From a virus, in IMG/VR virus record IMGVR_UViG_3300017917_002302, positions 1 through 38,497 of that record: DNA of 38,497 bases, one strand, 5' to 3'. How positions within the stretch are numbered: the stretch's first letter is position 1; every line of letters starts with the position of its first letter. A program made the position numbers and the translations under genes. Below are positions 9,707 through 37,769 of this stretch, one piece after another. The notes under the pieces were generated by a model that saw only the letters and a list, made by a program, of their open reading frames with translations, ran no database searches and was not told the DNA's origin.

Positions 9707-11779
9707 ATTAGAAACAACTTATTTCGCATAGGCTTATCAATAATATTTGGCTTTGGATGGCTATTTTCTGCCTCCTCTCAAGCAACTAATGATCCCTTAA
9801 TCCAGGCACAAGAAGATATACAACAATTAACAATAGATATAGAAAACCTTGTAAATAAAACAGAAACCCAAAGACTTTTAGATTTGGCAAATGAAAAATA
9901 CGACGATGCAGTTCAAGCAAGGCAGGATAAAGAAGATGCAATTCAAAACTATGATGATTCAGTAAATGCCTATAATGATGCTGTGACCGCAGAGGCGACG
10001 GCACTTGAACAATTAACTTTGGCCCAATCAGCAGTAGATGGACAAACAGTAACAGTTAATTTAGCATTAGAGGAGAAGAATAATTCTCAGGACGCTTTAG
10101 ATTTAGCAAATATTAATTTACAAACAGCACAATTAGTAGTGCAGAATTCTGGAAATCAAGGATGGCAGTTTACAGCCTATACACTTAATAGAAGCGGAAA
10201 TTTTGCATATGCTGGAACACAATACTGCTCTGGAGTACTGACCCAATCGTATCAGGGTATGCCAATTTGTGGTAGATATGAGAACATGTTTGTTGTTTAT
10301 TCTGGAAAAATAACAGCACCCGAAGGTGTAAATAATGTATCTTTTGCAGGGTACACGGATGATGGCTTTAGAATGTATGTTGACGGCCAATTAGTTATTA
10401 ATCAATGGCAAGATCAGGGGGCAACATGGAGCCCTTACTATTATCATACCTTTACTGCCGAAGATAGGGTTATAGATGTAGTATTTCATTATTTTAATGG
10501 AGGAGGCCCAGGAGTATTTCATGTTGGTTGGGGTCATAGCGGAATTTGGACTGGGGTAGCATCAAGCGCAATGTCTTATGGTCAGGGCGCTACGCAGGCA
10601 CAAATAGATTCATATAACCAGGCGTTATCAGATCAGCAGGCAGCACAAGAAGACTACGATAGTAAACTTGCTACATATAATTCTGCGGTTCAAAACCTCA
10701 CATCATTAAATCAAGACCTCACAAATGCTACACAAAACCTCACAACAGCACAGCAAAACCTAACAAATGCTCTGAATGCAAAAAATAATGCGCTACAAGA
10801 TAAAGAAAATGCAGAAGATAATTATGATCAGGCAATATTAGATATGCAACAGGCTATCATAAATACTAGAGAAGAATATAATAAGCAATGGGAGTTTGAA
10901 GAAGCACAAAGAGTTGCTGCTGCTATTGCTCAGGCTTTAGCAAATCAACCACAACCTGAGCCCACTCCTGAGCCTGAACCCAGTCCTCTACCGTCCCCAG
11001 AACCATCACAGCCAGAAGAGCCAACACCAGAGCCTTCATCTGAACCTACTCCAAGTCCCCAACCATCGCCTGAGCAAACAGAACAAGATTCTCCCAATCC
11101 TGAGCCAACTGATCAAACAAATGGTGAATCAAACGCAACTCCAACCCCTGAGCCTGAGACAACTCAAGAGCCTCAGCCAGAGCCATCACCTCAGCAAACG
11201 GATATAGATCCTTTTCCCACTCCAACTCCTCAACCAGAGCCAACTCTTCCTGAACCCTCTTTAGAACCAACACAAGATAATAATACCACGGAAGATCTAA
11301 CAAGAGTATTAGCAAATCTAACAAGTAAAGATAACATTACTGTTAAATTAACTCCAGAACAAATGGCTATTGTTGGACAATCTTTAATTGCCTTGGCTCC
11401 AGAGGCTAAGGTAGAACTTGCAAAAGATCTTGGGGTTAAGACAGATGAGATAGCAATACTTGCAGAAGCAGCACAGGATAATCCTGCTGTGGCTGCTGCT
11501 ATTATTTCATTTGCTGAAAAGGCAGAAGAAAATGCTGATGCTCCTATGCCATATACAATTGCAGACGCTATTACTGAGGCTGCTGCTGAGTTATTTTTAG
11601 AAGACCCGCTTGCTGTTTTTGCTGCGGTAGATTTAGAAGAATTATCTGACCCTAGTCAATGGGGTAAAGATATGACAGATGATCAAAGAGAAAAAGCACA
11701 AGAGGTTATAGTTCCAGTAATATTAGTATCTAATATTGTTACATCTGTTGCCTCTGCTCTTTCAATAAGGAGAATATAA
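9707..11779 (+). CDS. exported PA14-domain, proline-rich surface protein with ATT start
   Basis: 690 residues if translation begins at ATT 9707. No in-frame ATG, GTG or TTG lies between the stop at 9686 and TTG 9884, but a strong AAGGAGAGGAG site precedes ATT, and only this start yields the signal peptide (NNLFRIGLSIIFGFGWLF, cleavage near SSQA). Order: signal peptide; N/Q-rich coiled coil to about 150; PA14 beta domain to about 290 with YTDDGFRMYVDGQ, typical of sugar-binding PA14; second coiled coil; Pro/Glu/Ser/Thr stalk; helical domain; hydrophobic C-terminal segment. PA14 usually binds carbohydrate, so the protein may be a host-exported adhesin or a virion fibre. Follows a terminator with its own promoter. 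Confidence 0.72.
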   Translation: MRNNLFRIGLSIIFGFGWLFSASSQATNDPLIQAQEDIQQLTIDIENLVNKTETQRLLDLANEKYDDAVQARQDKEDAIQNYDDSVNAYNDAVTAEATALEQLTLAQSAVDGQTVTVNLALEEKNNSQDALDLANINLQTAQLVVQNSGNQGWQFTAYTLNRSGNFAYAGTQYCSGVLTQSYQGMPICGRYENMFVVYSGKITAPEGVNNVSFAGYTDDGFRMYVDGQLVINQWQDQGATWSPYYYHTFTAEDRVIDVVFHYFNGGGPGVFHVGWGHSGIWTGVASSAMSYGQGATQAQIDSYNQALSDQQAAQEDYDSKLATYNSAVQNLTSLNQDLTNATQNLTTAQQNLTNALNAKNNALQDKENAEDNYDQAILDMQQAIINTREEYNKQWEFEEAQRVAAAIAQALANQPQPEPTPEPEPSPLPSPEPSQPEEPTPEPSSEPTPSPQPSPEQTEQDSPNPEPTDQTNGESNATPTPEPETTQEPQPEPSPQQTDIDPFPTPTPQPEPTLPEPSLEPTQDNNTTEDLTRVLANLTSKDNITVKLTPEQMAIVGQSLIALAPEAKVELAKDLGVKTDEIAILAEAAQDNPAVAAAIISFAEKAEENADAPMPYTIADAITEAAAELFLEDPLAVFAAVDLEELSDPSQWGKDMTDDQREKAQEVIVPVILVSNIVTSVASALSIRRI

Positions 11780-13942: not shown

Positions 13943-14608
13943 ATGGATATTAAAAGACTAATAAATAAGAATAGAATTGGCTCAGAGTTTTGGATAAACT
14001 CAGAAAATAAAAGTTTTACAGAGATTGTACAAGCAAATAAAACTATGCCTAGGATTTGGGCGTCACCAGAAACCATTGTGCACAGTTTATATTATGATAA
14101 TATATTCAAACCAATAAATGGTTATGCTAAAGAGTTTTGGCCAAGACCAAAACTTATAAAAGATAATGAAGTCCTACATCTAAGATATTTTACACATGCA
14201 GAAATTTGGGTTCAACCAATGAGAGATGGACTGTATTGCTTAGATAAGGTATGGCAAAGACAGTTTTATCCTTCTGAAATCAATATTAATAATACAGAAG
14301 ATTGTTTTAGTGCTGTTTATAAATTTTATATACCATGGATTTTTGATGAAAACTTAACTTTAAGTATAAAAGAAGTAGATGGTTCTCCATTTAAAATTTT
14401 AAATACTAAAGTTAATTTTTATAAATTAGATAGAAATGAATATTGGAACTGTGATTGGTTTCATTTTTTAATTAAATCTGAGGGAAATCATCTAGAAAAA
14501 TATAATGATCGTGTATATGGAGTAATTCCAATTAATACTCCTATATGTGATATAATTATTGAAAATAAAGAACTTATCGATAAAATAGAAAGAGAATATG
14601 GAAAATAA
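13943..14608 (+). CDS. hypothetical phage protein
   Basis: 221 residues, rich in aromatic residues (WASPETIVHSLYYDN, FWPRPKLI, IWVQPMRDGLYCLDKVWQ) with alternating strands, suggesting a compact beta protein. A proline-rich VIPINTPICDIIIENKE near the C-terminus resembles the PxxTPxxQ segment of the next gene, so the two may be diverged relatives. I do not recognise the family. It starts 9 bases after the HslV-like stop and overlaps the next gene by 11 bases, so it is co-translated with it. Confidence 0.55.
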   Translation: MDIKRLINKNRIGSEFWINSENKSFTEIVQANKTMPRIWASPETIVHSLYYDNIFKPINGYAKEFWPRPKLIKDNEVLHLRYFTHAEIWVQPMRDGLYCLDKVWQRQFYPSEININNTEDCFSAVYKFYIPWIFDENLTLSIKEVDGSPFKILNTKVNFYKLDRNEYWNCDWFHFLIKSEGNHLEKYNDRVYGVIPINTPICDIIIENKELIDKIEREYGK

Positions 14609-15329
14609 AATAATATTTTCTCCAACTGGAGTGAACGCTAATAATAGTTTATATAACACTCCCCCAGTAAAAGCACTTTCAGTTTTACCAGATTGGTACA
14701 AAGATTTAGCAGGTTATCGTTTTGGATCAAGCCATAGCAAAAGTTTTTTGCATCCAGTAAATGATCGTGGTCAAGACGGATCTGATGTATCTACTAAATT
14801 ATGTAATCCTTTAATGGATGCCATGACTTCTGGATATATTCAAACATTGCCAGAAGATGTTGAAGTAATAGTAGATAAGGATGAAAAGCCATCTTTATTT
14901 TGGAAAACACAAGTTCCATTAATTGATACTAGGCCTATAGTAGATTTTGCTATTCCAAAGGAGTGTTATCCAATACATTTTGGGTGGAAAATGTTTTGGT
15001 ATTATGAAACACCTCCAGGATATTCTCTTTTAATAACTCACCCCCTTAATAGATACGATTTGCCATTTTATAGTCCGTCTGGGATTGTAGACAGTGATAT
15101 TTGGGGGCTTCCCGTATTCTTTTCATTTTTCCTTAAAAGAGGGTTTGAGGGAATTATAGAAAAAGGGACTCCATTATTTCAAATGATTCCAATAAAAAGA
15201 GAAGACTGGTCTCTTGAATTAGATTACTCTGAAGAAAAATATTGGGAAAATAAAATAAAAGAAGAACAAAGGCGTTCACATATTACAGGACATTATAAAA
15301 AGTCTACATGGCAACGAAAAAATTACTAA
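14598..15329 (+). CDS. conserved phage hypothetical protein (DUF6065-like pattern)
   Basis: 243 residues. Recognisable blocks are LPDWYKDLAGY near the N-terminus, PPGYSLLITHPLNRYDLPF about residue 140, then SGIVDSDIWGLPVFF and KGTPLFQMIPIKREDW. I remember this order from uncharacterised beta-sandwich proteins of cyanophages and other marine phages, close to the family called DUF6065; the name is tentative. No catalytic motif is clear. Such genes often sit beside 2OG-oxygenases and glycosyltransferases, as here. Confidence 0.55.
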   Translation: MENKIIFSPTGVNANNSLYNTPPVKALSVLPDWYKDLAGYRFGSSHSKSFLHPVNDRGQDGSDVSTKLCNPLMDAMTSGYIQTLPEDVEVIVDKDEKPSLFWKTQVPLIDTRPIVDFAIPKECYPIHFGWKMFWYYETPPGYSLLITHPLNRYDLPFYSPSGIVDSDIWGLPVFFSFFLKRGFEGIIEKGTPLFQMIPIKREDWSLELDYSEEKYWENKIKEEQRRSHITGHYKKSTWQRKNY

Positions 15330-15334
15330 TAGTG

Positions 15335-15340
15335 TATAAT
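15335..15340 (+). promoter_or_regulatory. -10 element (TATAAT) before the 15367 gene
   Basis: A perfect TATAAT at 15335-15340 is followed by AAAAGGAG and the ATG at 15367. No -35 is apparent. It would give a second transcript start inside the cargo operon. Confidence 0.4.
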
Positions 15341-15366
15341 GGATAATAACTATAAAAGGAGAAAAA

Positions 15367-16035
15367 ATGCAGAATAATAATTTTTATAATACGCCAAAGG
15401 CTTACAATAAGCCACACCAATTTTTTGAAAAATATTTAGATAATGATTTAAACAAAATGATGGATCATTTAATTCAGGTTTATAGAGATATGCAAAATGC
15501 AAATTTACGTGGAGTTTCTCCAGTAGGATCAGAAAAAGATAAATTTTGGATTGAATCTGGCAGCGTTTCTACTGTTAAGTGGACAGAGTATAATGTTTTT
15601 CAATTTTATACCGAAGAAATCCATAATGTTTATTCTGCTGTAAGAGATCTTGCTATTGAGGCTTGCGACTACTATGGGGTTAATTTTAAAGAACAAAAAT
15701 ATTATATTCAGGGATGGTTTAATATTAATGATCGTAAAGTTGGTAAACTGAACTGGCATGATCACGGTGGCCCCTGGGCACCATTTTGGCATGGATATTA
15801 TTGCATTAAAGCGGAGCCTTCATCTACTTTCTATAAAATAGAAAACAGAGATGACTTAATTGTTGAAAATCACAATAAAGACAACAGACTTATTCTTTCT
15901 GAAATGGGTCATCCTCATGCAATGGGAGATTGGGAATGGGATGGTCCAAGAATCACCTTGGCATATGATATTGTGCCACTTGCTAGTCTTCAGTTAGCGT
16001 CAGCAACTCCACAGCACTGGATTCCATTGGTATAG
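15367..16035 (+). CDS. 2OG-Fe(II) oxygenase-like protein of the cyanophage type
   Basis: 222 residues. The C-terminal half carries LNWHDHGGPWAPFWHGYYCI, then a beta segment ending EMGHPHAMGDW and PRITLAYDIVP. This arrangement (WHxH/D, later His, PRIT-AxDIVP) resembles a family annotated as 2OG-Fe(II) oxygenases in cyanophages. The classical HxD is replaced by HDH, so iron ligation differs or another metal-binding cupin-type chemistry is used. A strong Shine-Dalgarno, AAAAGGAG, precedes ATG 15367. It begins a tight run with a glycosyltransferase-like protein and two prolyl-hydroxylase-like proteins. Confidence 0.55.
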   Translation: MQNNNFYNTPKAYNKPHQFFEKYLDNDLNKMMDHLIQVYRDMQNANLRGVSPVGSEKDKFWIESGSVSTVKWTEYNVFQFYTEEIHNVYSAVRDLAIEACDYYGVNFKEQKYYIQGWFNINDRKVGKLNWHDHGGPWAPFWHGYYCIKAEPSSTFYKIENRDDLIVENHNKDNRLILSEMGHPHAMGDWEWDGPRITLAYDIVPLASLQLASATPQHWIPLV

Positions 16036-16036
16036 T

Positions 16037-16867
16037 ATGACATCTATAAAAGTTTTTATTTACAGTTATAAAAATAAAAATTTATTAGAAAACTTACAGG
16101 ATATAATAAACAAACAAAGTAATAAAAATGATATAAGTTATTATATTTATGACCAGAATAACGTTAATAGAGATTTTTTATTTAACAAAGTAAATGCTAA
16201 CATTAAATATAATCATGTTAGATGGGATGACATCAAATCTATAACCTATCATAGAAACATGGCTTTATTGCATTATAGTAATTCTAAATATTACTTAGAA
16301 TTAAATCCAAATATTTCTTTGATGAATGAATGGGACGATTATTTTCTTTCTAATATTGAAGATAAAAAAGTAATTTCTGGTTTTGGGATGCCTAGATTAT
16401 CTATAAATAAATCTTATGTTGTTGAAAATAGAGAATATTCTGATTCCATTAAAGAAACAAATTATATAGATACAGATTTAATATTTTGTTCTCAAATTGA
16501 TGCACTAACCTTAATCAAATTAAAAAATTTAAAGCAAATTGGACAAAATTTATTTGCATCCTTACTATTTGTAAATAAAGGATACAGTATATATTCGCTT
16601 CCAAGTAATTTATATAATAAGATAGTGCAAGAAAATGAAAATACATACAAGTCTTTCTCAATAAATCATGGATACAATAAAATGTTATCACTGATTAAAA
16701 AAGAGAATAATGAAAAATTTGAATATTTTCATAAAATATCTATTAATGAGATATCGGAAATTCCCTATCAAATTGATGATGTACCTTATAGTGAATATAA
16801 AATTAGTCTTGAAGATATGGATACGCCAAGATTTTTAGATGGGTATCGGAAGATACAAATAACATAG
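16037..16867 (+). CDS. GlcNAc-transferase-like (GT60/Skp1-type) protein
   Basis: 276 residues. The segment from residue 71, YHRNMALLHYSNSKYYLELN...WDDYFL, resembles the RN-x-LYxGExYxLQIDSHxxFxxxWD block of the GlcNAc-transferase family that modifies hydroxyproline of Skp1 in eukaryotes; DNA-phage relatives exist. Here the DSH metal/nucleotide motif is replaced by NPN (residues 90-92), so sugar transfer may be lost or use another residue. It is flanked by a 2OG-oxygenase-like gene and by prolyl-hydroxylase-like genes, the same two activities that act one after the other on Skp1. The match is moderate; a diverged GT-A enzyme of other specificity is possible. Confidence 0.45.
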   Translation: MTSIKVFIYSYKNKNLLENLQDIINKQSNKNDISYYIYDQNNVNRDFLFNKVNANIKYNHVRWDDIKSITYHRNMALLHYSNSKYYLELNPNISLMNEWDDYFLSNIEDKKVISGFGMPRLSINKSYVVENREYSDSIKETNYIDTDLIFCSQIDALTLIKLKNLKQIGQNLFASLLFVNKGYSIYSLPSNLYNKIVQENENTYKSFSINHGYNKMLSLIKKENNEKFEYFHKISINEISEIPYQIDDVPYSEYKISLEDMDTPRFLDGYRKIQIT

Positions 16868-16873
16868 TATAAT
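16868..16873 (+). promoter_or_regulatory. -10 element (TATAAT) before the prolyl-hydroxylase-like genes
   Basis: TATAAT at 16868-16873 in the 3' end of the previous gene and just beyond its stop, followed by the ribosome site GGAGG (16880-16884) and ATG 16889. No -35 match is seen. Confidence 0.4.
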
Positions 16874-16888
16874 CTAATAGGAGGTATT

Positions 16889-17485
16889 ATGCATAGAATA
16901 ACAGTTATAGAAAATTTTATTACACCAGAAGACGCATCTACTTTGATTCAGCAACAATTGGATCCTAATGCAGAAAAAAATCCATATCCAGAATATTATT
17001 CTGACAGGTACGGCGGAACCTCTCTTCCATATAACAAAACCGTACAAGATATAATGATAAAGTATGGTAAAAAGTCTAATGAAATGCACAAACACTTAAA
17101 TGGTTTTAAAAATGATATATATGTTTTTAAAGGATTTGGATCCCATTGGTCTGCTGGCACTAGGGGTGATTTGCATATAGATGCACAAGGCCCAGAGCCT
17201 TTTATTGAGTTTAGCACAATTATGTATTTAAGTGATGAAAAAGACTATGATGGTGGAATAATTTATTTTCCAAATCAAGATTTTCAATATAAACCAAAAC
17301 AATATTCTGCAGTATTTTTCCCTTCAGCAGGAACAGAGTATGTTCACGGTATAACTACAGTTACTCGTGGAGAAAGATTTACCGCACTTTTTATGCATAC
17401 TAGTCTGCCACAACATTCAGATCCAGACTATCACCCTAATCCAAGTTTTTGGAAGGCTGGTGTATACCCGCTTGCTAAAATATGA
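16889..17485 (+). CDS. prolyl 4-hydroxylase-like 2OG-Fe(II) oxygenase
   Basis: 198 residues. The P4Hc pattern is clear: HIDAQ gives the HxD iron pair (about residue 94), STIMYLSD...YDGGIIYFPNQ is the strand-turn-strand (DGGxxxFP), FFPSAGTEYVHGI supplies the distal His and RGERFTALF the 2OG-binding Arg. It should hydroxylate proline or a related residue in a peptide using O2 and 2-oxoglutarate. The strong GGAGG site and TATAAT upstream suggest independent expression. Its 3' end overlaps the next paralogous oxygenase. Substrate unknown. Confidence 0.75.
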   Translation: MHRITVIENFITPEDASTLIQQQLDPNAEKNPYPEYYSDRYGGTSLPYNKTVQDIMIKYGKKSNEMHKHLNGFKNDIYVFKGFGSHWSAGTRGDLHIDAQGPEPFIEFSTIMYLSDEKDYDGGIIYFPNQDFQYKPKQYSAVFFPSAGTEYVHGITTVTRGERFTALFMHTSLPQHSDPDYHPNPSFWKAGVYPLAKI

Positions 17486-18131
17486 AACTTTAGATCTTGG
17501 TTTAGTTTTATATAAAGATGTAATCAAAGATCCTGAAAAAATTATAGAAGAAGTTAATTCTTTAGAAAATAGGTATAGAGATAACGAGCACGGAACATCT
17601 TTTACTGATGTTAAAACATGGACTCCATGGCAGAACGAAAGTGCTAAGACTATGGAAACTTTTTGCTGGCAAAAGTTTTTACCTCCACCACATACAATTA
17701 ACACCAATGATTATTATTTTAATGAACAACTTAGCATATCTAAAAAGTTATATGAAACATTAGATCTTGCAACTAATCATTATGCAAATACACTTTACCC
17801 CTTTTGTGGGAAAAATATAAAAAATAGAGAATTTAGCATACACCTATTAAAATACGATGTCGGTGGATTTTTGCCTGCACATCAAGACCATGGTGTTAGT
17901 AGCAGAATACTCTCCACTGTTAGTTATCTTAACGATGACTACGAAGGCGGAGAAATAGAATTTCCTAATTCTAAAATAAAAATAAAACCTCCAGCAGGCA
18001 GTATTATATTTTTTCCATCTAATTTTTTATATGTGCATCAGGTTCATGCAATAACTAAAGGCTCTAGATATTCTTTACCGCACTGGTATCATAATATGAG
18101 AAACCCTATATTCTCAACAGGAGAAGAATAA
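17472..18131 (+). CDS. second prolyl 4-hydroxylase-like 2OG-Fe(II) oxygenase
   Basis: About 219 residues. PAHQDHG gives HxD, YLNDDYEGGEIEFPNSKIKIKPPAGS is the classic P4Hc turn and FFPSNFLYVHQVHAITKGSRYSLPHW gives the distal His and Arg. It lacks an in-frame ATG at the 5' end: TTG 17472 is taken (overlapping the upstream stop by 14 bases), with GTG 17460 possible because of a GGAAGG at 17451, though the spacing is short. It is closer to the 35.1 and 35.6 kb pair (all share YINDDYxGGEIxFP) than to its immediate neighbour. Role as for the neighbour. Confidence 0.72.
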   Translation: MLKYETLDLGLVLYKDVIKDPEKIIEEVNSLENRYRDNEHGTSFTDVKTWTPWQNESAKTMETFCWQKFLPPPHTINTNDYYFNEQLSISKKLYETLDLATNHYANTLYPFCGKNIKNREFSIHLLKYDVGGFLPAHQDHGVSSRILSTVSYLNDDYEGGEIEFPNSKIKIKPPAGSIIFFPSNFLYVHQVHAITKGSRYSLPHWYHNMRNPIFSTGEE

Positions 18132-18133
18132 AA

Positions 18134-18220
18134 ATGAAAAAATTAATTAAAAAAATTAAACTTTATTTTTTTATTCGTAAGATAAGGAAAACAGATAAAA
18201 CTAAAAGGTATTTTTACTAA
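18134..18220 (+). CDS. tiny basic peptide (28 aa)
   Basis: A 28-residue ORF, too short for usual gene-finder cut-offs, begins two bases after the oxygenase stop and ends directly before the carbamoyltransferase ATG. It is very basic (KKLIKKIKLYFFIRKIRK) with an amphipathic or membrane-active look. The perfect spacing supports translation. A similar small basic peptide (35 aa) occurs at 19867. Function unknown; it may be a coupling leader for the downstream gene. Confidence 0.45.
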   Translation: MKKLIKKIKLYFFIRKIRKTDKTKRYFY

Positions 18221-19648
18221 ATGATAATCCTTGGAATAAATGAAACTTCTCATGACGCATCTATATCTTTAATTAAAGATGGAGAAATACTTTTTGCTGG
18301 GCATGCAGAAAGATATAGCAAGCAAAAGAATGATTGGTATAACAATAAAGAAATTATTTTAGATGCATTAAACTACGGAACACCAGATGCCGTGGCATAT
18401 TATGAAAAACCTTGGCTAAAAAGATCCAGAATATTTTTAAAAGGCGGGGCAGCAGATTGGAAACCAAACATTCCATTAAAGGTGCCAGTACATTATTTTA
18501 AGCACCATCATTCACATGCAGCAGCAGGATACTATACTAGTAAATTTAATGATGCTGTTATAGTAGTCCTAGACGCTATTGGAGAATACAATACTTCTAC
18601 CGTATGGGTTGGTGAAGGAAATTCAATAAAGCAAGTATATAAAAAAAATTATCCTTTTAGTTTTGGTTTATTTTATTCAGCATTCACTCAGTTGGTCGGA
18701 CTAATGCCGAATCAAGAAGAATATATTATGATGGGGATGGCTGCCTATGGGGATTGGACAAAGTATTACCTAAAGGTAAAAGAATATTTTCCAGATATAA
18801 ACACACAAAAATATAATTTTCACAAAGGAATTCTTGATTGGAATCAAGAAATAACGGAGCAAGATAGGTTTGATATAGCAGCAGCAGTTCAAAAGGTATA
18901 TGAAGATAGACTAGTTAACTTTATGGCTATGGCAAAAAAACTTACAGGAAAACGTAATCTTGTTTTTATGGGGGGATGTGCCCTTAACTGTGCAGCCAAT
19001 ACAATGCTTTGGAGGATGTTTGATGATGTCTGGATTATGCCAAACCCAGGAGATGCTGGATCGTCTCTAGGAGCGGCTGCAGCAGCCTATGGAAGTCATC
19101 TAAAGTGGGAGCATCCATATCTAGGGCATGACTTAGGGGGAGAGTATCCAGTAAAATCTATCATGACAGAGTTAATAAGAAATAAAATTGCTGCAGTAGC
19201 GACTGGAAGAGCGGAATATGGTCCAAGGGCTTTGGGAAATAGAAGTATTCTTGCAGATCCAAGAGATCCAAACATTAAAGATAAAGTTAATTTAATTAAA
19301 AAAAGAGAGTTGTTTAGGCCTTTTGCCCCAGTAATATTAGAAGAATACGCAAGTAAATGGTTTGATATGAGATATACCTCGCCATATATGCAATATACTC
19401 CTAAATGCTTAAAGCCTGACCTAATACCTTCAGTTGTTCATAAGGATGGAACCTCTAGAGTTCAGACGGTAAATAAAAACCAACATCCAGGACTTTACAA
19501 TTTACTTTCAGAGTGGTATGCTGTAACTGGTGTTCCAATATTATTAAATACAAGTTTAAATATAAAGGGGCAGCCTCTTCTTAATGACAAAGATGATATA
19601 ATTAATTGGGAAAAGGCCTATGGCCATAAAATAATAACAGGAGATTAA
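18221..19648 (+). CDS. NodU/CmcH-type carbamoyltransferase
   Basis: 475 residues. The Kae1-like N-terminal half begins MIILGINETSHDASISL, with the KHHHSHAAAGYY metal-binding histidines at about residue 95 and VVLDAIGEYNTST. The C-terminal YrdC-like part of this family includes GGCALNCAANT, GDAGSSLGAA, RAEYGPRALGNRSILADPR and KKRELFRPFAPV, all present here. Family members transfer carbamoyl groups from carbamoyl phosphate via carbamoyl-AMP to sugars or antibiotics. Carbamoyltransferases of this type occur in tailed phages, where they may modify glycans or nucleic acids. All key motifs are intact, so it is probably active. It shortly follows the oxygenase/glycosyltransferase cluster. Confidence 0.88.
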   Translation: MIILGINETSHDASISLIKDGEILFAGHAERYSKQKNDWYNNKEIILDALNYGTPDAVAYYEKPWLKRSRIFLKGGAADWKPNIPLKVPVHYFKHHHSHAAAGYYTSKFNDAVIVVLDAIGEYNTSTVWVGEGNSIKQVYKKNYPFSFGLFYSAFTQLVGLMPNQEEYIMMGMAAYGDWTKYYLKVKEYFPDINTQKYNFHKGILDWNQEITEQDRFDIAAAVQKVYEDRLVNFMAMAKKLTGKRNLVFMGGCALNCAANTMLWRMFDDVWIMPNPGDAGSSLGAAAAAYGSHLKWEHPYLGHDLGGEYPVKSIMTELIRNKIAAVATGRAEYGPRALGNRSILADPRDPNIKDKVNLIKKRELFRPFAPVILEEYASKWFDMRYTSPYMQYTPKCLKPDLIPSVVHKDGTSRVQTVNKNQHPGLYNLLSEWYAVTGVPILLNTSLNIKGQPLLNDKDDIINWEKAYGHKIITGD

Positions 19649-22179: not shown

Positions 22180-22416
22180 ATGATTATTAAAACATTAGAA
22201 CAAATGGAAGAAATCGTATCAAATAATAAAGATCTGTATTGGGATGGCTGGTCAGTTATTAATAGATATAAGTCTGATAAGGCCAAAACCTCTAAATATG
22301 GAGTATATTTTAAAGGTAGTTGGTATATGTCTAAAAGATTTGATCCAAGTCGTAGTGGATGGGACATCCCAGAAAGGTTTGTCTTAGGACATGCACAAAC
22401 TAAAATGGAAAGATAA
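22180..22416 (+). CDS. hypothetical actinophage-type small protein
   Basis: 78 residues preceded by a good Shine-Dalgarno (TTAGGAGA). Aromatic- and basic-rich: DLYWDGWSVINRYK, YGVYFKGSWYMSKRFDP, GWDIPERFV. This looks like a compact alpha-beta protein and resembles short uncharacterised proteins in actinophage early regions. It overlaps the WhiB-like gene by 26 bases, so the two are made together. Confidence 0.5.
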   Translation: MIIKTLEQMEEIVSNNKDLYWDGWSVINRYKSDKAKTSKYGVYFKGSWYMSKRFDPSRSGWDIPERFVLGHAQTKMER

Positions 22417-22679: not shown

Positions 22680-22856
22680 GTGAATAATAAAGATTACTTA
22701 AATTTTTTAAGAAAAAAAAATAAAGAAGTAATGTCAAAATGCTATTATTGCGATGGGTTTTCTATAACAATAATTGCAGATGGATATTCTATTAGACCAG
22801 TATGTAAAAGCCATGATACTAGGTCATTAGAAGAAATAGAGGAGAACATAGATTGA
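22680..22856 (+). CDS. small Cys/His zinc protein (58 aa)
   Basis: A GTG-initiated 58-residue ORF lying two bases after the WhiB stop and overlapping the next start. It carries CYYCDGFS and later VCKSHDT, so CxxC and C-x2-H, enough for one zinc, plus an acidic EEIEENID tail. A related arrangement occurs in other small proteins in this window (2344, 38153). Not long enough for prediction of function. Confidence 0.55.
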   Translation: MNNKDYLNFLRKKNKEVMSKCYYCDGFSITIIADGYSIRPVCKSHDTRSLEEIEENID

Positions 22857-23611
22857 TTATACAAATTATAGGTTTGCCAGGATCTGGCAAAACAGCATTA
22901 GCCAAGGCTTTGAAGGAGCGAATTAATGCCATTCATCTTAATGCTGATGAAGTTAGATCTACAGTAAATTCTGATTTAGGATTTGCCCCTGAAGATAGAA
23001 TTGAACAGGCACGTCGTATGGGTGAAATTGCAAGACTTATTGCCAAGCAAAATGTTGCGCCTGTAATTGTTGATTTTGTTTGTCCTACTGATGAAACAAG
23101 GAGCGCATTTGGCTTTGCAGACATAATTATATGGGTTGATCGCATAAAAGAGGGAAGGTTTGAAGATACAAACAAACTCTGGAAAGATCCTATCAGTTTT
23201 CATATTAGAATTCTGGATGGCTATACAATAGAAGAGGAGGTTGATATGATATTACAATCTTGTGGATTGTTTGACTGGTCTGCCCCAACTACACTACAAC
23301 TTGGCAGGTATCAGCCTTGGCATGAAGGTCATCAGGCTTTGAAGGAGGAGGCGCATAAAAGAACTTCTCAGGTCTTAGTTGGCGTTCGTAATACGTATAA
23401 AACATCTGAGAAAGATCCGCTAATGTATCATGAGGTGGCTAACTATATTAAACAAGATAATCCTTTTAAAGATACATTGATATTAAGATTGCCTAATATT
23501 ACGAATATTATCTATGGTCGTGATGTTGGATATAAGATTGAACAGGTAAAGTTAGGAGAAGATATTGAATCTATTAGTGCTACTCAAAAACGTAAAGAAA
23601 TGGGTATCTGA
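22853..23611 (+). CDS. APS-kinase-like and nucleotidyltransferase fusion
   Basis: 252 residues from TTG 22853. Residues 1-115 form a P-loop kinase of the APS-kinase type: GLPGSGKT at 7-14, LNADEVRS (substrate loop), LGFAPEDRIEQARRMGEIARL and the FVCPTDETR lid. Residues 140-252 form a cytidylyltransferase-like nucleotidyltransferase with GRYQPWHEGH (GRxQPxHxGH), then the ISATQKRKE phosphate motif. Together it could phosphorylate and adenylylate or cytidylylate a small substrate; one reading is PAPS-like or NMN-type metabolism. Stand-alone APS-kinase-like proteins are common in cyanophages, but I do not recall this fused form. A sulfotransferase is encoded at 28984. Substrate not determinable. 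Confidence 0.75.
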   Translation: MIIQIIGLPGSGKTALAKALKERINAIHLNADEVRSTVNSDLGFAPEDRIEQARRMGEIARLIAKQNVAPVIVDFVCPTDETRSAFGFADIIIWVDRIKEGRFEDTNKLWKDPISFHIRILDGYTIEEEVDMILQSCGLFDWSAPTTLQLGRYQPWHEGHQALKEEAHKRTSQVLVGVRNTYKTSEKDPLMYHEVANYIKQDNPFKDTLILRLPNITNIIYGRDVGYKIEQVKLGEDIESISATQKRKEMGI

Positions 23612-28237: not shown

Positions 28238-28376
28238 ATCTTCTGGAAAATATAAATCTAAACATCCATTTAATCCTATTCAAATAAAAGATGGCATGGT
28301 TGTTCGTTTAAGAAAAGACGGTACAGTTAAAGCAGTTCTTGGCAAGTATGGCGAGTATAACAAAAAAAATAAATGA
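28224..28376 (+). CDS. small basic phage protein (50 aa)
   Basis: 50 residues from ATG 28224, overlapping the stop of the preceding gene and in ATGA overlap with the next. Begins with a Gly/Ser/Lys-rich stretch (SGKSSGKYKSKH) and continues IQIKDGMVVRLRKDGTVKAVLG, which forms two short strands of SH3-like or KOW-like shape. Very basic; may bind nucleic acid. Unknown function. Confidence 0.5.
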   Translation: MASGKSSGKYKSKHPFNPIQIKDGMVVRLRKDGTVKAVLGKYGEYNKKNK

Positions 28377-28981
28377 TAAACAAATTCAATATTCTTGAAT
28401 CCATCAGGAAAAGAGATATTTTTTTACAAAAAAACTTTACAGATCAAATGCCATCGTGGGAAAAAATTAATAACTTATATGATAAATCAATAAATTCAGA
28501 AAACATAATTTTTTCTTCATTTGGAACAATGGTTGTCAATAAATCTGATCAGTACGTTGACTTTTATAATGATTTTATAAATTTTTTTAAAGATTTAACT
28601 AATTGGAATTTTTCTCAAGCATTAACAATAATACATTTTATTAATAAAAATAATAATATTATTAATGATGATTATGCAAAAAAAATATATGAAAAATTTT
28701 ATAAAGATAATCCTAAGAAAAAGCCAAATGAAGTTGTTTTATCTGACTATAGCGCTGAACCATTGAAATATTTTGAGCCAGAAATACATCATGATAAATC
28801 ACATAATTTTTTTATTCAAGGTCAAGGGAAAACATTGTGGAAAATTTATCATGATGAAAAATTATTTAAAGAGTATATAATTGAAGAGGGAGATCTTGTT
28901 TATATACCAGAAAATTTAATGCATAGTGTTGAAAGTTTATGTCCAAGATTTTCTGTTTCCCTGATATTTAATAATATTTAA
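28373..28981 (+). CDS. cupin/JmjC-like 2OG-Fe(II) oxygenase
   Basis: 202 residues. EPEIHHDKSHNFFIQGQGKTLWKIYH then IEEGDLVYIPENLMHSVES is the JmjC/cupin_8 pattern: H-x-D and distal His with an FxxQxxGxKxWxxY core. Such enzymes hydroxylate Asn, Arg or His side chains in proteins. It is unlike the P4H-type oxygenases elsewhere here, so it is a separate lineage. It ends next to the convergent sulfotransferase gene. Base composition is very AT-rich (long AAT/ATT runs), more so than its neighbours, so it may be a recent acquisition. Confidence 0.55.
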   Translation: MINKFNILESIRKRDIFLQKNFTDQMPSWEKINNLYDKSINSENIIFSSFGTMVVNKSDQYVDFYNDFINFFKDLTNWNFSQALTIIHFINKNNNIINDDYAKKIYEKFYKDNPKKKPNEVVLSDYSAEPLKYFEPEIHHDKSHNFFIQGQGKTLWKIYHDEKLFKEYIIEEGDLVYIPENLMHSVESLCPRFSVSLIFNNI

Positions 28982-29682: not shown

Positions 29683-31722
29683 TTACTTTATATCAAATCT
29701 ATCAAGCATCATAACTTTGTCCCATGCCTTAGCAAAGTCATTGACAAACTTTTGATTTGCATCATCTGCAGCATACACCTCTGAAATAGCACGTAATTCA
29801 GAATTAGATGCAACGATTAGATCAACACGAGGAACTCCTGCGGCTTGATCAGCATTAATGTAAGATAAAAGTTGAATCAAATAACTATTATCTAATTTAT
29901 CAGATTCTAGCACTCTCATTCCAGTAAGAAGAATTACCATTTCTACAGGATTTAAATTAAGCATGTTTGCTTTTTCAATTAATAATTTTTCTTCAGGAAC
30001 AAATACTGTAGGATTGACATAGTTTCTAAAGCCATCTGCAATAGGCTCAAGTGTTTTAAATGAGTCAACATCGGTTTGCTCTTGAGTTGCATCTCCACGA
30101 CCTGGAGTAAATGAAACCTTAACCTGTTCGCCAGAGGCCTTTTCAATTGCTGCACATCCTGCAAGAACAATTAAATCTGCAATTGAAATTAAATGTTCTT
30201 TTTGAATCTGCTCTAAAAATGAAATAACATCAGAAATTATTTCATGATTGTTTGACTGCCAAGTATTTTGTGGTCTCAGTCTAATTCGAGCACCGTTTGC
30301 ACCACCACGCTTATCTGTTTTGCGGAAGGTAGATGCAGAAGCCCATGCTGTATATACAAAATGATACATAGGAATATCAGAGGATTTGATTCTATTCTTA
30401 ATACTCTCTACATCGATATCCTTAGTAATTGATGCAGGAACTGGATCCTGCCAAATTAATTCTTCAGAAGGAACTTCTTTACCAAGATATCTAGCAATTG
30501 GACCCATGTCTCTGTGTGTTAGTTTGAACCAAGCACGAGCAAATTGATCAGAGAAATAATCAAAGTCTTCAAGGAATCTTCTTGAAATCTTTTCATATTC
30601 TGGATCAAATCTAAGAGCAAGGTCTGCAGTTGTCATAACTGGAGCATGGAATTTTCCTTCAATATGTGCATCTGGAACTAAATTAGCAGCAGATTCATCT
30701 GTAGGAATCCATTGTGTTGCACCAGCAGGAGACTTTGTTTGCTTCCAATCATACTTAAACAATAGTTTTAGATATGTATTATCCCACTTTGTTGGAGTTG
30801 GAGTCCATGCACCTTCAATACCACTTGTAATAGTATCTTCTGCATTACCCTTTCCAAATGAGTTTTTCCATCCAAGACCCATTTGCTCAATAGGCGCAGC
30901 CTCTGGCTCTGGTCCAACATGGGATGGATCTCCAGCACCATGTGCCTTACCAAATGCATGTCCACCTGCAATAAGTGCAACAGTCTCTTCATCATTCATA
31001 GCCATACGGGCAAAGGTTTCACGAATATCTCGTGCAGATAGGAGCGGATCTGGATTACCATTTGGTCCTTCAGGATTTACATAAATCAAGCCCATCTGCA
31101 CCGCAGCAAGAGGATTCTCTAACTCACGATCACCGCTATAACGATTGTCTGCAAGCCATTCCTTTTCGCTACCCCAATAAGTATCATCTGCTTCATAAAC
31201 ATCTTCACGACCTCCACCAAAACCGAAAGTCTTAAAGCCCATGTTTTCTAAAGCAACATTACCAGCAAGAATCATAAGGTCTGCCCATGAAATCTTCTTG
31301 CCATACTTCTTTTTAATTGGCCATAGAAGTCTACGAGCCTTATCTAAATTACCATTATCTGGCCATGAGTTTTGTGGAGCAAATCTGTGCAGACCTTCTC
31401 CTGCACCGCCACGACCATCAGTTGTTCTGTATGTACCTGCACTGTGCCAAGCCATACGAATAAAGAATGGACCATAATTACCATAGTCAGCAGGCCACCA
31501 ATCTTGCGAGGTAGTCATAACCTGCTCAATATCAGCCTTAAGAGTATCAAGATCTAGACTCTGAAACTCTTTAGCATAATCAAAATCAGGATCCATAGGG
31601 TCTGACTTTTCTGAATTTTTTCTTAAAGGAGATAGATCTAATTGGTTTGGCCACCAATCTTCGTTGTATGTTCCTTTAGTTGTTAAACTATTACCCGTGA
31701 ATGGGCACTTTTCTTCTGACAT
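29683..31722 (-). CDS. katG: catalase-peroxidase KatG
   Basis: 679 residues. Arg89, Trp92 and His93 of the active-site segment [12 protein letters not shown] are intact, as is DGRGGA; the [11 protein letters not shown] Tyr and the proximal His in [13 protein letters not shown] are present. The two-domain layout of bacterial KatG is visible, with the second half (from about 400) containing [31 protein letters not shown]. It destroys hydrogen peroxide (and is a broad peroxidase). Bacterial enzymes are typically 720-740 residues, so this is somewhat short; no frameshift is seen. It is an auxiliary gene for oxidative stress, set between tRNA-Thr and tRNA-Glu with its own promoter and ribosome site (AGAAGGA). 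Confidence 0.95.
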
Positions 31723-32352: not shown

Positions 32353-33957
32353 TTATTCCTCTCCGTCAAAATAGTTATTTTTTAAATATTGGTATAAAGA
32401 TGGTGCATTAAGTGCGTTATTTTTCCATTTTTCTTTTCTTGATTCCCAAATTAAATTTGCCTGATAAACTATATGACTTAAAGGTATTCCAGTGCTAAAA
32501 TATTCTGCATCTGCTCTAGCATTATTCATCATATTTAGATTCATTCCAGTTGCTATGTATGTTATTCCAGCAACACCCAAAGGATGTTCAAAATTAGTCA
32601 TATATCTTTCAACCAAGTCATTAAAAGAACTTTTAGTATTAGAAAAAGAATCTATCATTTCATTTTCTACATTTATGGTAGTTCCATTTTTAATACTTCT
32701 CCAATATTCTGTATCATCTCTATGAGATAATAAATAATGTAATGATACAAATTGAGCAAAACCTTTATATAGAGATTTAGTTGATTGATTATACATATTA
32801 CGATCAAACTGACTTATATCATTTCTTTGTAATATGTCTACTAACTTAAACAAAAATTCATGTACAGTATATAAGCCATTAGACTCCAAGGGTTCAATAA
32901 AACCAGCAGCCATACCTATTGCCACTACATTTTTTACAAATGTTCTCTCATGAATACCAATCTTAATATCAATATATCTAAATTTCAAATTATCTACTTC
33001 TTCTTTTGTTCTAGGTATTATCATTTTATCTGACATTAAATATTTTTTAAACTCATCTAACGCCTGTTCTTTTGTAATAAATTTTGTTGAATGAACATAC
33101 CCAGTTCCTAGTCTAGAATACAATGGTGTATTCCAACACCAACCATTCTCTATGGCTGTACAATTTGTATACGACTCCATTTCTTTTTCTTTATCTTTAT
33201 AAGGCACCTGGGCTGCCCAAGCGCCATTATTTGGAATTATATTTTGAAAAGAAATATAAGGTTCGTTTAAAGATTGGCCCAATAATAAACTTTTAAATCC
33301 TGTACAGTCTACAAATAAATCTGCATTAACAATCTCTCCATTATCTAATTCAAGATATTTAATTCCTATTTCATCATCTTTGATAACACTAGTAACGGTT
33401 GCTTCAATATGTTTTACTCCATTTGGTAAACATATAAAATCTTTAAGCCATCTACCAAATTTAACTGCATCGAAATGATAAGCAACATCTCTTTTAGGAT
33501 CAAAATTATCAAATTCATTATTAGTATTTGGAGAATATTTATTTTGTGCAAATAATGCTGATGCTGGAAATAAACAGTCTACAAAGTCAGTTACTGGTAT
33601 TTCTGGATGAAAATATTTTTTTACATGCCAATCATAAAATGGATTTCGATTTTTATCTACCATTGGATTTCCAAATGGATAATGAAATCCTCCAGAATCT
33701 TTTTTATAAAAGTCAGTAAACTTTATACTTAGTTTATACGTAGCATCTGTAGCCTTTAAAAAATCTTTATCTTTTAATCCTATGAAATTTGTCCAACGTT
33801 TAATATGAGACAAGGTAGATTCTCCAACACCAATAATTGGAACATCTTTAGATTCTATTACGCTTATTTCTTTATTTGGAAATGCTTTTATTAAAGTCGC
33901 TGCCGACATCCACCCAGCAGATCCACCACCCACAATTACTATTTTATTTATTGACAT
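32353..33957 (-). CDS. FAD-dependent tryptophan-halogenase-like protein
   Basis: 534 residues. IVIVGGGSAGWMSAAT is the GxGxxG FAD loop with the SAGW end typical of flavin-dependent halogenases; GVGESTLSHI, then LSIKFTDF (the expected catalytic Lys region), and WCWNTPL near residue 270, a variant of the WxWxIP motif that separates halogenases from monooxygenases. IEPLESNGLY matches the PLES(S/N) block. Length fits PrnA/RebH-type enzymes. Substrate is unknown: viral and phage relatives exist and some act on free indole or other compounds. Its neighbours are an SGNH hydrolase and oxygenases. The reductase partner is not seen. Confidence 0.85.
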   Translation of the reverse strand: MSINKIVIVGGGSAGWMSAATLIKAFPNKEISVIESKDVPIIGVGESTLSHIKRWTNFIGLKDKDFLKATDATYKLSIKFTDFYKKDSGGFHYPFGNPMVDKNRNPFYDWHVKKYFHPEIPVTDFVDCLFPASALFAQNKYSPNTNNEFDNFDPKRDVAYHFDAVKFGRWLKDFICLPNGVKHIEATVTSVIKDDEIGIKYLELDNGEIVNADLFVDCTGFKSLLLGQSLNEPYISFQNIIPNNGAWAAQVPYKDKEKEMESYTNCTAIENGWCWNTPLYSRLGTGYVHSTKFITKEQALDEFKKYLMSDKMIIPRTKEEVDNLKFRYIDIKIGIHERTFVKNVVAIGMAAGFIEPLESNGLYTVHEFLFKLVDILQRNDISQFDRNMYNQSTKSLYKGFAQFVSLHYLLSHRDDTEYWRSIKNGTTINVENEMIDSFSNTKSSFNDLVERYMTNFEHPLGVAGITYIATGMNLNMMNNARADAEYFSTGIPLSHIVYQANLIWESRKEKWKNNALNAPSLYQYLKNNYFDGEE

Positions 33958-35071: not shown

Positions 35072-35641
35072 TTATAAATTCCTGCCTGGTTTTTTATACT
35101 GATTTATATCTCCACGATAAGTTGAGCCCCTAAAGTTAAACCATAGGGTAGACGAGTATCTTTCTTTACCAATATTTTCAAGCACCTCGTGCAAATATTC
35201 CTGATTGCTAGGGAATATAATAAAACTATTAGACTTAGGCTTAATTGTTAAGTTATGCCACGGAAAATTTATTTCGCCACCCTCATAGTCATCGTTAATA
35301 TAGTATATTGCTGCAAAATCACCTGCAGTATCTACATGCTCATTCATTTTATGTCCTATTTCAAACTTAATTAAATGAACCTCTTCTCTTTCAAAAACAC
35401 GAAGTTCTACATTATATAAATCTACGCATTTTTGATAAGCAATTCTAAAAACTTTTTCCAACATATCAACAATTTCTTTCGGCATTTCTTTTGATACGAA
35501 AAATTTAACACCCCATGGCTGAGTCTGCCATGAATTAATATTTATTACATAGTTAAGCAATTGATCATGCTCTTCTTTGGACAAAACATTTTCTATAACA
35601 TGTATATTGTTTACTGAATTACCTAATTCATAGTTTGTCAT
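35072..35641 (-). CDS. prolyl 4-hydroxylase-like 2OG-Fe(II) oxygenase (tandem copy A)
   Basis: 189 residues. MNEHVDTAG gives HxD, YYINDDYEGGEINFPWHNLTIKPKSNS is the conserved turn, and YLHEVLENIGKERYSSTLW gives the distal His and Arg. It is the closest relative of the adjacent copy at 35645, both starting with N-I-x-x-x-ENVLSKxEH. It also resembles the 17472 oxygenase. A TACGAT -10 with TGG lies 6 nt before the ATG. Confidence 0.78.
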   Translation of the reverse strand: MTNYELGNSVNNIHVIENVLSKEEHDQLLNYVININSWQTQPWGVKFFVSKEMPKEIVDMLEKVFRIAYQKCVDLYNVELRVFEREEVHLIKFEIGHKMNEHVDTAGDFAAIYYINDDYEGGEINFPWHNLTIKPKSNSFIIFPSNQEYLHEVLENIGKERYSSTLWFNFRGSTYRGDINQYKKPGRNL

Positions 35642-35644
35642 ATT

Positions 35645-36247
35645 TTAATCGTACCATTCATTTTTTTTATTAAAATTAGAGCCAGTAAACTGAAACCATT
35701 TAGAAGAACTATATCTGTCTTTACCAACAACTTTATATACTTCATGTGTATAGTTTTCATTGCCAGGAAAAATAATAAGGCTATTAGCCTTTGGCTTAAT
35801 CTTTAAATTATGATCTGGAAAGTTTATCTCTCCGCCAGTATAATCATCATTAATATAATATACTGATGCAATATGGTTTGATTCAACTGATAGGGTATCT
35901 ATATGAGGATTTAAGGAGAAACCTTCCACAAATTTAAATAAGTTAAATTTATATCTATCTAAAGGATTAATTTGGACGCCGTAAAGATCTATAGATTTTT
36001 GATGAGCAATCATAAATACTTTATATAACATCTCTAAAATTTCTTTAGGAATTTTATCATATAAAATAGACATAGCGTTCCACGGCTCTTCACCCCAAGA
36101 TTCATAACTCGTTACAAAATTAAGTATAGTATTATGTTCATCTTTAGATAATACATTTTCTAAATATTGTATATTATCTATAGAGTTACCTATTTTTGCA
36201 ACATTTGATAGGTATACCTCATCTTTTTCAGAGGGGGTAGTAATCAT
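35645..36247 (-). CDS. prolyl 4-hydroxylase-like 2OG-Fe(II) oxygenase (tandem copy B)
   Basis: 200 residues. PHIDTLS (HxD), YYINDDYTGGEINFPDHNLKIKPKANS and NYTHEVYKVVGKDRYSSSKWF (His and Arg) show the intact P4Hc core. An extra N-terminal segment, TPSEKDEVYLSNVAKIGNS, distinguishes it from copy A. Preceded by TGG-TAAAAT and a 6-nt gap to ATG 36247, then tRNA-Arg. Together the two copies look like a tandem duplication of one gene. Confidence 0.78.
   Translation of the reverse strand: MITTPSEKDEVYLSNVAKIGNSIDNIQYLENVLSKDEHNTILNFVTSYESWGEEPWNAMSILYDKIPKEILEMLYKVFMIAHQKSIDLYGVQINPLDRYKFNLFKFVEGFSLNPHIDTLSVESNHIASVYYINDDYTGGEINFPDHNLKIKPKANSLIIFPGNENYTHEVYKVVGKDRYSSSKWFQFTGSNFNKKNEWYD
35648..35656 (-). 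promoter_or_regulatory. extended -10 (TGGTACGAT) with leaderless ATG
   Basis: Minus strand: TGG-TACGAT with exactly 6 nt (TAAAAT) before ATG 35641. The box lies inside the end of the upstream copy's coding sequence. Confidence 0.5.
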
Positions 36248-36728: not shown

Positions 36729-37769
36729 TCAAATACCATTATTCCAAACTAATCTTTTACCCTTTTTAATACAAGTAAACTTTAATCCAGCAATAGATTT
36801 ATTTGAATTAAATTTATTACACCGCTTACTGGCATATAGTTTTCTTGCTAAATCTTGATTCTTTTTTATCTGTGCAGCAAGTTTTTGTTCTTCCTTTTTC
36901 TTTGCTTTTTCTTTTAAAAACTCTTTAATTTTATCCTCATTGACAATTAATTCTGCCTCTTTTATCAAATTCATAAACTTAAAGGTAGGAGTTATTCCAG
37001 AAACTCCTCCCCCAATACCAAACGTGGCTTTATTATAGCAATTAGGTATTGCCCACGTAAATCCTCCAACAGGACCTATATAAAATCTAGTGTTTTCTGC
37101 TTCTACAAAGAACCCTGCTCCTGAGTCTCCATCACAGATAGAGCCACCATCTTTTGTATTTAAAATTCCATATTTTAAAACTGTTTGATTTAATGGAATA
37201 CTTTGAAAATTCTTTGAACGATACTCAAGAATTTCTTTTTCTCCAATTATACGAGTTGTCATTTTATGCGGACTAAAGTCAAATACTTTATTTATTTCTC
37301 TTTGAGAAGAATTTTGAAGACCATATCCAACCATGCGCACTGTAGTTTTATTTAAAATAAAAAACTCAATATCTTCTTTGGTAGCAATAACAACTTTATT
37401 ATGCATAGGAATGCTTTCCTGCAAAATTATTATTGCAAAATCATCGATACGAGTTTGATCGTTAAGATTTCTAGGAATATATGTAGGAGACATGATCACT
37501 TTTTTAACTTTATATGATCTTTCACCTGCCCTACTAACAATTCCTGGAGAATATACAATTCCATTTTTTTCCCAATAACTTAGCCCTCCAGTTGACTCAA
37601 TGACATGTGCTGCTGTAAAAATTATTCTGTCTGAATATAAAAACCCAGATGCTCCTCCTACCTTGACAGCATTAGGGTCACCAGTGGCATCTTGACCAAA
37701 CTCTACAGAATAGGAGGGCGAAGAGTTTAGTACAAGAGTTGATAAAACTATAAGTATGATTTTTTTCAT
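36729..37769 (-). CDS. secreted trypsin-like serine protease
   Basis: 346 residues. A signal peptide (KKIILIVLSTLVLN, cleavage near SYS-VEF) precedes a chymotrypsin-fold domain: His in IIFTAAHVI (about residue 55), Asp in RIDDFAIII (about 102), Ser in CDGDSGAGF (about 215). All three are present so it should be active outside the membrane. After residue 280 a Lys-rich helix leads to CNKFNSNKSIAGLKFTCIKKGKRLVWNNG, a short Cys-pair motif that I recall from exported proteins of small aquatic actinobacteria, so the gene may be host-derived. A TATAAT element lies about 30 nt upstream, with AGAAAG before ATG. Confidence 0.75.
   Translation of the reverse strand: MKKIILIVLSTLVLNSSPSYSVEFGQDATGDPNAVKVGGASGFLYSDRIIFTAAHVIESTGGLSYWEKNGIVYSPGIVSRAGERSYKVKKVIMSPTYIPRNLNDQTRIDDFAIIILQESIPMHNKVVIATKEDIEFFILNKTTVRMVGYGLQNSSQREINKVFDFSPHKMTTRIIGEKEILEYRSKNFQSIPLNQTVLKYGILNTKDGGSICDGDSGAGFFVEAENTRFYIGPVGGFTWAIPNCYNKATFGIGGGVSGITPTFKFMNLIKEAELIVNEDKIKEFLKEKAKKKEEQKLAAQIKKNQDLARKLYASKRCNKFNSNKSIAGLKFTCIKKGKRLVWNNGI

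Follow-up and report, generated by a model that had tools for sequence, protein, structure and literature searches.

Glycosylation of hydroxyproline is best known from eukaryotes. In the Skp1 pathway of Dictyostelium and Toxoplasma, the prolyl hydroxylase PhyA acts first and is followed by Gnt1, a glycosyltransferase of family GT60 whose target residue must be hydroxylated (PMC6939170). Among phages, protein glycosylation has been described for a few mycobacteriophages, and in Che8, Corndog, and Myrna phage-encoded glycosyltransferases glycosylate capsid and tail proteins (PMC12363180). Phage DNA can also carry 5-hydroxymethylcytosine (5hmC) that is modified by a carbamoyltransferase, in a system which includes thymidylate synthase (PMC8670742). 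The subject of this report is a run of seven genes, at positions 13943-19648 of the IMG/VR virus record IMGVR_UViG_3300017917_002302, a linear record of 38.5 kb from an uncultured aquatic phage; the window is this whole stretch of 38,497 nucleotides. An earlier note on this DNA had pointed to a possible phage hydroxyproline-glycosylation system at 14598-18131. The gene run is a cassette common to dozens of other uncultured aquatic phages, with the same gene order, and we put at about even the chance that it constitutes one functional module which hydroxylates a substrate and then decorates it.

A conserved gene cassette

The run is compact, with all genes in the same direction, and encodes two proteins without assigned function, three oxygenase-like proteins, one glycosyltransferase of GT-A fold (GT), and one carbamoyltransferase (CT). 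The seven genes, in their order in the window, and one further gene that bears on the proposed target are:

13943..14608, + strand: G13943, first cassette gene; without Pfam or PHROG match; in 62 distinct GT loci it lies three genes upstream of GT
14598..15329, + strand: G14598 (phrog_7084, E value 8.5e-35); dUTPase-like predicted fold
15367..16035, + strand: OX15367, oxygenase-like (phrog_2696, E value 8.8e-9); HxH...H-x10-R pattern
16037..16867, + strand: GT (GT16037), GT-A fold glycosyltransferase-like; PF11397; predicted fold near GalNAc-T2; NPN at residues 90-92 and QNL at 170-172
16889..17485, + strand: P4Ha, 2-oxoglutarate (2OG)-Fe(II) oxygenase like the prolyl 3-hydroxylase domain; PF13640; H96, D98, H153, R163
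17472..18131, + strand: P4Hb, 2OG-Fe(II) oxygenase like bacterial prolyl 4-hydroxylase; PF13640; the TTG start at 17472 is a guess
18221..19648, + strand: CT (CT18221), O-carbamoyltransferase of the NodU/TobZ type; PF16861, PF02543, phrog_1601
9884..11779, + strand: PA14-like protein with a proline-rich stalk; PF07691 (PA14) E value 3.2e-4, below cut-off

Between 13943 and 18131 the genes overlap or are separated by short gaps, and about 90 bases precede CT18221. Open frames were found at 14598-15329, 15367-16035, 16037-16867, 16889-17485, and approximately 17472-18131, the last of which sits inside a longer frame (17367-18131). The oxygenase-like, GT-like, and two prolyl-hydroxylase-like genes that the earlier note had listed thus all correspond to real frames, but the unit is larger than the extent it gave, since it begins at 13943 and usually takes in the carbamoyltransferase gene at 18221.

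To avoid circularity, the loci from a scan of IMG/VR viral contigs with GT only were mapped separately; 66 viral loci came from a scan with P4Ha and 30 from one with OX15367. The untruncated loci of the GT scan contain G13943, G14598, then either a second G14598 (G14598b) or OX15367, followed by GT and P4Ha. P4Ha starts no more than 63 bases 3' of GT for 77 of the 79 distinct GT proteins in untruncated loci (80 distinct GTs overall). The exceptions are L141, where P4Ha is still the next gene after GT with a larger gap, and L102, where an OX15367-type gene occupies the place of P4Ha beside GT; in this 98-kb record P4Ha has a locus without an adjacent GT, and the GT is located elsewhere among three OX15367-type genes. 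Because the same order recurs in the GT-only scan, the gene run is not a chance arrangement.

Phages without the cassette have a fixed 'empty' arrangement, which keeps the HslV-like gene, the subtilase, OX15367, CT, and the endolysin, and from which G13943, G14598, GT, P4Ha, and P4Hb are missing, all five together. As OX15367 and CT are both retained in this arrangement, they may represent an older core, with the GT-P4H part as a later addition. Distances among GT proteins are best correlated with those of G13943 (r 0.84), followed by G14598 (0.77), P4Hb (0.70), P4Ha (0.57), and CT (0.50), and the values are lower for the flanking HslV-like (0.35) and endolysin (0.25) genes and for a kinase gene (0.19); these correlations include shared phage ancestry, and gene C8, outside of the cassette, also reaches 0.69 (28 loci).

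P4Ha matches 4 to 7 proteins in each of several long related records, and in many related loci a secreted subtilase-like gene is found beside the cassette. A second, more canonical PF11397 glycosyltransferase is encoded near the carbamoyltransferase in L028, L035, L046, L047, and L068 (E value 2.7e-16 in L068). Neither GT nor P4Ha had a tblastn match among the isolate phages of the phage collection, and one pattern-limited scan of genome contigs, which distant homologues could escape, revealed no cellular GT homologues.

Enzymes encoded by the cassette

The product of the P4Ha gene passes the cut-off of PF13640 (2OG-FeII_Oxy_3; E value 2.6e-7), and its nearest solved structure is prolyl 3-hydroxylase 1 (E value 1.2e-6). 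Residues H96, D98, H153, and R163 are each 100% conserved in 52 homologues. P4Hb also passes PF13640 (E value 1.5e-15), has a Bacillus-type prolyl 4-hydroxylase as its nearest solved structure (E value about 6e-6), and retains the HxD...H and R residues in 98-100% of 50 homologues. Both proteins therefore include the HxD...H iron triad and the Arg/Lys position that binds 2OG, and the description of the two genes as prolyl-hydroxylase-like is upheld: their sequence relatives are prolyl 3- and 4-hydroxylases, with the PKHD-type protein PiuC also matched. OX15367 contains the pattern H131-x-H133...H184-x10-R195, 97-100% conserved in 38 homologues, in which HxH takes the place of HxD/E while the distal H184 and R195 have the expected spacing. 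No Pfam match was found for OX15367, and Pfam searches of the relatives of OX15367 and G13943 gave nothing useful. The earlier reading of this gene as 2OG-oxygenase-like thus retains the conserved His/Arg pattern but finds no profile match and a departure from HxD/E, and we call it oxygenase-like by residue pattern only.

Other 2OG oxygenases are encoded in the window at 35075-35641 (-) and 35648-36247 (-), both phrog_61, and an oxygenase-like protein matching JmjC_2 (PF08007; E value 3.9e-8), of the ribosomal-oxygenase family and a possible modifier of host ribosomes, at 28373-28978 (+). Plain 2OG oxygenases also match PHROGs 2297, 274, and 3531 here, whose names are DNA endonuclease, DNA endonuclease V, and ferrochelatase; judging from these matches, the labels look wrong for these members.

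The GT protein (276 aa) passes the PF11397 'GlcNAc' cut-off (31.6 bits versus 21; E value 1.6e-7) over only 56 residues (52-107), and most of the other cassette GTs scanned fall below it. In a model predicted from a 43-sequence alignment (mean pLDDT 87.8), the protein has a GT-A fold which is nearest to polypeptide GalNAc-transferases (GalNAc-T2, Z 19.2 over 229 residues with 13% identity; top rows Z 16-19); the match lists bear only on the families listed in them. Among its neighbours in viruses are several proteins of uncultured phages that bear the name 'Glycosyltransferase, GlcNAc'. A search of the GT profile against PDB sequences gave chance matches only, and PF11397 had no match in records without the cassette, where no control matched either. 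The glycosyltransferase relationship proposed for this gene is thus borne out by the Pfam profile and the predicted fold.

In GT-A enzymes, the metal motif is positioned directly after the fourth strand. In the window GT the corresponding predicted strand comprises residues 85-89, and residues 90-92 directly after it are NPN, so that the acidic DXD/DXH motif is missing. An acidic residue is present at 90-92 in 68 of the 80 GT homologues; L026 and L054, for instance, have an acidic motif of the form SDD. At 170-172, nearly all homologues have at least one acidic residue, and the only ones with none are the window GT (QNL) and L006, both of which also lack an acidic residue at 90-92. At these two positions none of the 80 is more degenerate than the window GT. 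The warning in the earlier note about NPN was therefore justified, and it extends to a second active-site position. Compared with close relatives, GT has a dN/dS of 0.14-0.23, similar to or slightly higher than that of the other cassette genes (0.04-0.22); the values, obtained by the simple Nei-Gojobori method at a dS close to or beyond 0.7, are approximate. They place the window GT under purifying selection. Low dN/dS together with degenerate motifs indicates that it is retained by selection while ordinary metal-dependent catalysis is doubtful, and the protein probably works without a metal, has changed its chemistry, or serves as a non-catalytic subunit that holds the substrate. Because the acidic motif is missing, we do not claim membership of GT60 or GT27.

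CT18221 matches PF16861 (178.6 bits) and PF02543 (131.7 bits), both above cut-off, as well as phrog_1601 (E value 1.4e-108), and its relatives of solved structure include TobZ, GdmN, and the novobiocin carbamoyltransferase. On these matches it is clearly recognizable as a NodU/TobZ-type O-carbamoyltransferase.

The remaining proteins, G13943 and G14598, are the two without assigned function. G14598 has a match to DUF6065 below cut-off (E value 0.14), and the top folds for its predicted model (mean pLDDT 82.6) are dUTPases or dCTP deaminase, with Z up to 9.5 and approximately half of the protein aligned; at this middling Z the match suggests a likeness of fold only. The catalytic residues of dUTPases are the Asp after GY in motif I and Asp-x-x-Tyr in motif III. 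In G14598 the position after G79-Y80 is Ile or Met, D165 is Asp or Glu, and the Tyr position is mostly Ile. A canonical dUTPase was thus rejected, and PF00692 (dUTPase) had no match in 18 related records. Homologues of G14598 are also located in HF2-type haloviruses. We treat the protein as a putative partner of the cassette enzymes.

Proposed pathway and alternatives

In the proposed module, P4Ha, P4Hb, and OX15367 would use Fe(II), O2, and 2-oxoglutarate to install hydroxyl groups. GT, whose relatives transfer GalNAc or GlcNAc onto polypeptides, would attach a sugar to such a hydroxyl, and CT would cap a hydroxyl on the sugar or on the substrate with a carbamoyl group. The substrate may be a polypeptide made in infection, for example a phage protein that is exported or forms part of the virion. 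A module that hydroxylates and then decorates is well supported by the synteny, by the joint absence of five genes from cassette-minus phages, by the correlated distances within the cassette, by the GT fold and its PF11397 match, by the likeness to prolyl hydroxylases, by the intact Fe and 2OG residues, and by purifying selection. Because the hydroxylases resemble prolyl hydroxylases and GT resembles polypeptide glycosyltransferases, a polypeptide is the most likely substrate; we infer this, the order of the reactions, and a benefit to the phage. In toto, we tentatively propose, at clearly less than an even chance, a phage pathway of protein hydroxylation and glycosylation, possibly with carbamoylation, in which the oxygenases prepare sites on a virion or exported protein, a divergent GT27/GT60-like GT and CT finish them, and two more proteins, one of them dUTPase-folded, act as partners. 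As part of the same proposal, GT would be metal-independent or pseudo-enzymatic in some lineages.

The earlier note had suggested as the natural target the proline-rich stalk of the PA14-like protein, whose gene it started at 9707 (upstream of 9884 the frame may encode a signal peptide). This part of its proposal was not supported. PA14 stalks are equally proline-dense in phages without the cassette, and the PA14 gene is present in all three long cassette-minus records and has no match in five long cassette-plus records, some of which may carry a different proline-rich protein in the PA14 slot. As this distribution does not track the cassette, co-occurrence gives no support for the stalk as target, and it is at most a possible one. 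What stands of the proposed hydroxylation-glycosylation system is the presence of polypeptide-GT-like and prolyl-hydroxylase-like proteins in one conserved cassette.

Besides the distribution of the PA14 gene, several observations weigh against a protein-modifying pathway. Enzymes with PF13640 or GT-A folds also act on substrates other than proteins. The window GT is without acidic residues at the DXD/DXH position (90-92) as well as at the GEE position (170-172). P4Ha and P4Hb occur without an adjacent GT in eight loci, two of which belong to records that hold GT elsewhere. The dUTPase-like fold of G14598 is left unexplained by protein glycosylation.

That fold would find a place in a pathway of DNA hypermodification, where an oxygenase hydroxylates a base, GT and CT elaborate it, as in base J, the phage TET/GT systems, or 5-carbamoyloxymethylcytosine, and dUTPase-fold proteins shape the nucleotide pool. 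A phage carbamoyltransferase of the CT family does modify 5hmC, but that system co-occurs with thymidylate synthase (PMC8670742), and neither PF00303 (thymidylate synthase/hydroxymethylase) nor PF00145 (C5-methylase) was found in any of 18 related records, ten of them longer than 100 kb, in a search with positive controls and in records whose completeness is not known. P4Hb has a weak match to Tet_JBP (E value 0.043, below cut-off); all Tet_JBP (PF12851) matches in the 18 records are likewise below cut-off, the one checked was P4Hb itself, and both P4Ha and P4Hb are nearer to prolyl hydroxylases. With the dUTPase catalytic residues not conserved in G14598, we consider modification of DNA quite unlikely; it is a weaker explanation yet alive, because of the dUTPase-like fold and the uncertain completeness of the records.

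The antibiotics on which the solved relatives of CT act (TobZ, GdmN, novobiocin) suggest instead that the oxygenases, GT, CT, and neighbouring methyltransferase and halogenase genes might tailor a small molecule, or a glycan that is exported or lies on the cell surface, for instance as a defence against superinfection. The window does include a gene of the tryptophan-halogenase family and an O-methyltransferase-like gene, and in some P4Ha loci a methyltransferase stands upstream in the place of GT. Against this, the GT fold is nearest to polypeptide glycosyltransferases, the oxygenases are nearest to protein hydroxylases, and the cassette contains no recognisable gene for a biosynthetic scaffold, so that such tailoring, while it merits consideration, seems to us unlikely. 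It is very improbable that the run is a loose set of metabolic genes without a common pathway, in which the oxygenases use up 2-oxoglutarate or have a target each, and GT is a relic in decay. Modulation of host 2-oxoglutarate has been proposed for cyanophages rich in 2OG oxygenases (PMC3037559), and the window GT is degenerate, but the fixed order across 80 distinct GTs, the dN/dS of GT, and the strictly conserved oxygenase residues point to linked, selected functions.

In the open-licence literature and phage records searched, we found no prokaryotic-virus pathway of the composition proposed here, and in open-licence full-text literature no precedent for a phage prolyl hydroxylase with hydroxyproline and a glycosyltransferase. 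If the protein pathway is correct, a cassette of fixed order that unites the two enzyme types would mean that phages carry out decoration chemistry in several steps. With its named genes, relatives with intact motifs, and a natural comparison of phages with and without it, the cassette makes this a directly testable question. The passage from GTs with an acidic motif to the NPN form is, in addition, a natural case of a glycosyltransferase losing its metal site while under selection.

Additional genes in the window and in related records

A heme peroxidase of the catalase-peroxidase (KatG) kind is encoded at 29686-31722 (-; PF00141, E value 1.6e-67); katG has also been described in viruses from an estuary (PMC13390420). 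The gene of the flavin-dependent tryptophan-halogenase family is located at 32356-33957 (-; PF04820, E value 1.1e-102; phrog_2928), and a trypsin-like protease at 36732-37769 (-; PF00089, E value 4.8e-12). Six minus-strand tRNA genes lie between 29603 and 36691, mostly with one protein gene between each rather than as a single tRNA array. The product at 22853-23608 (+) has an APS-kinase-like domain fused to a cytidylyltransferase-like domain, and the cysteine-motif protein at 22391 resembles, by eye, WhiB, which has been treated as an actinophage marker (PMC10202952). A family of approximately 300 aa with a GxS motif (3106-4017 in L045; 34067-35065 (-) in the window) is often inserted near the cassette; it had no Pfam match above cut-off and, from its motif, looks SGNH-hydrolase-like.

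Comparison with known systems

T4-like cyanophages carry 2OG oxygenase and carbamoyltransferase genes of the same broad families (PMC3037559), but the phage collection yields no match to GT or P4Ha, so that the cassette itself was not found in them. The carbamoyltransferase of the 5hmC system belongs to the same families as CT (PF02543/PF16861), and differs in having a thymidylate synthase partner, which is absent from the 18 related records. In the glycosylation of mycobacteriophage virions, phage-encoded glycosyltransferases act on capsid and tail proteins of actinobacterial phages, as GT may do here on a phage protein. This likeness is by description; GT had no tblastn match in isolate phage records, and no hydroxylase or other oxygenase partner is mentioned in the cited sources.

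The polypeptide GalNAc-transferases (GT27) provide the solved catalytic domain closest in fold to the phage GT, which differs from them in its low identity (12-14%), in being without a lectin domain, and in having NPN at the place of DXH, the GT27 metal motif. The Skp1 pathway pairs a prolyl hydroxylase with a PF11397/GT60-type glycosyltransferase, and the cassette is similar to it in plan. The Skp1 pathway is, however, eukaryotic, with one known target and with genes that are not in a cassette, whereas in the phage the acidic motif of GT is lost and the cassette includes, besides, a carbamoyltransferase and two extra proteins.

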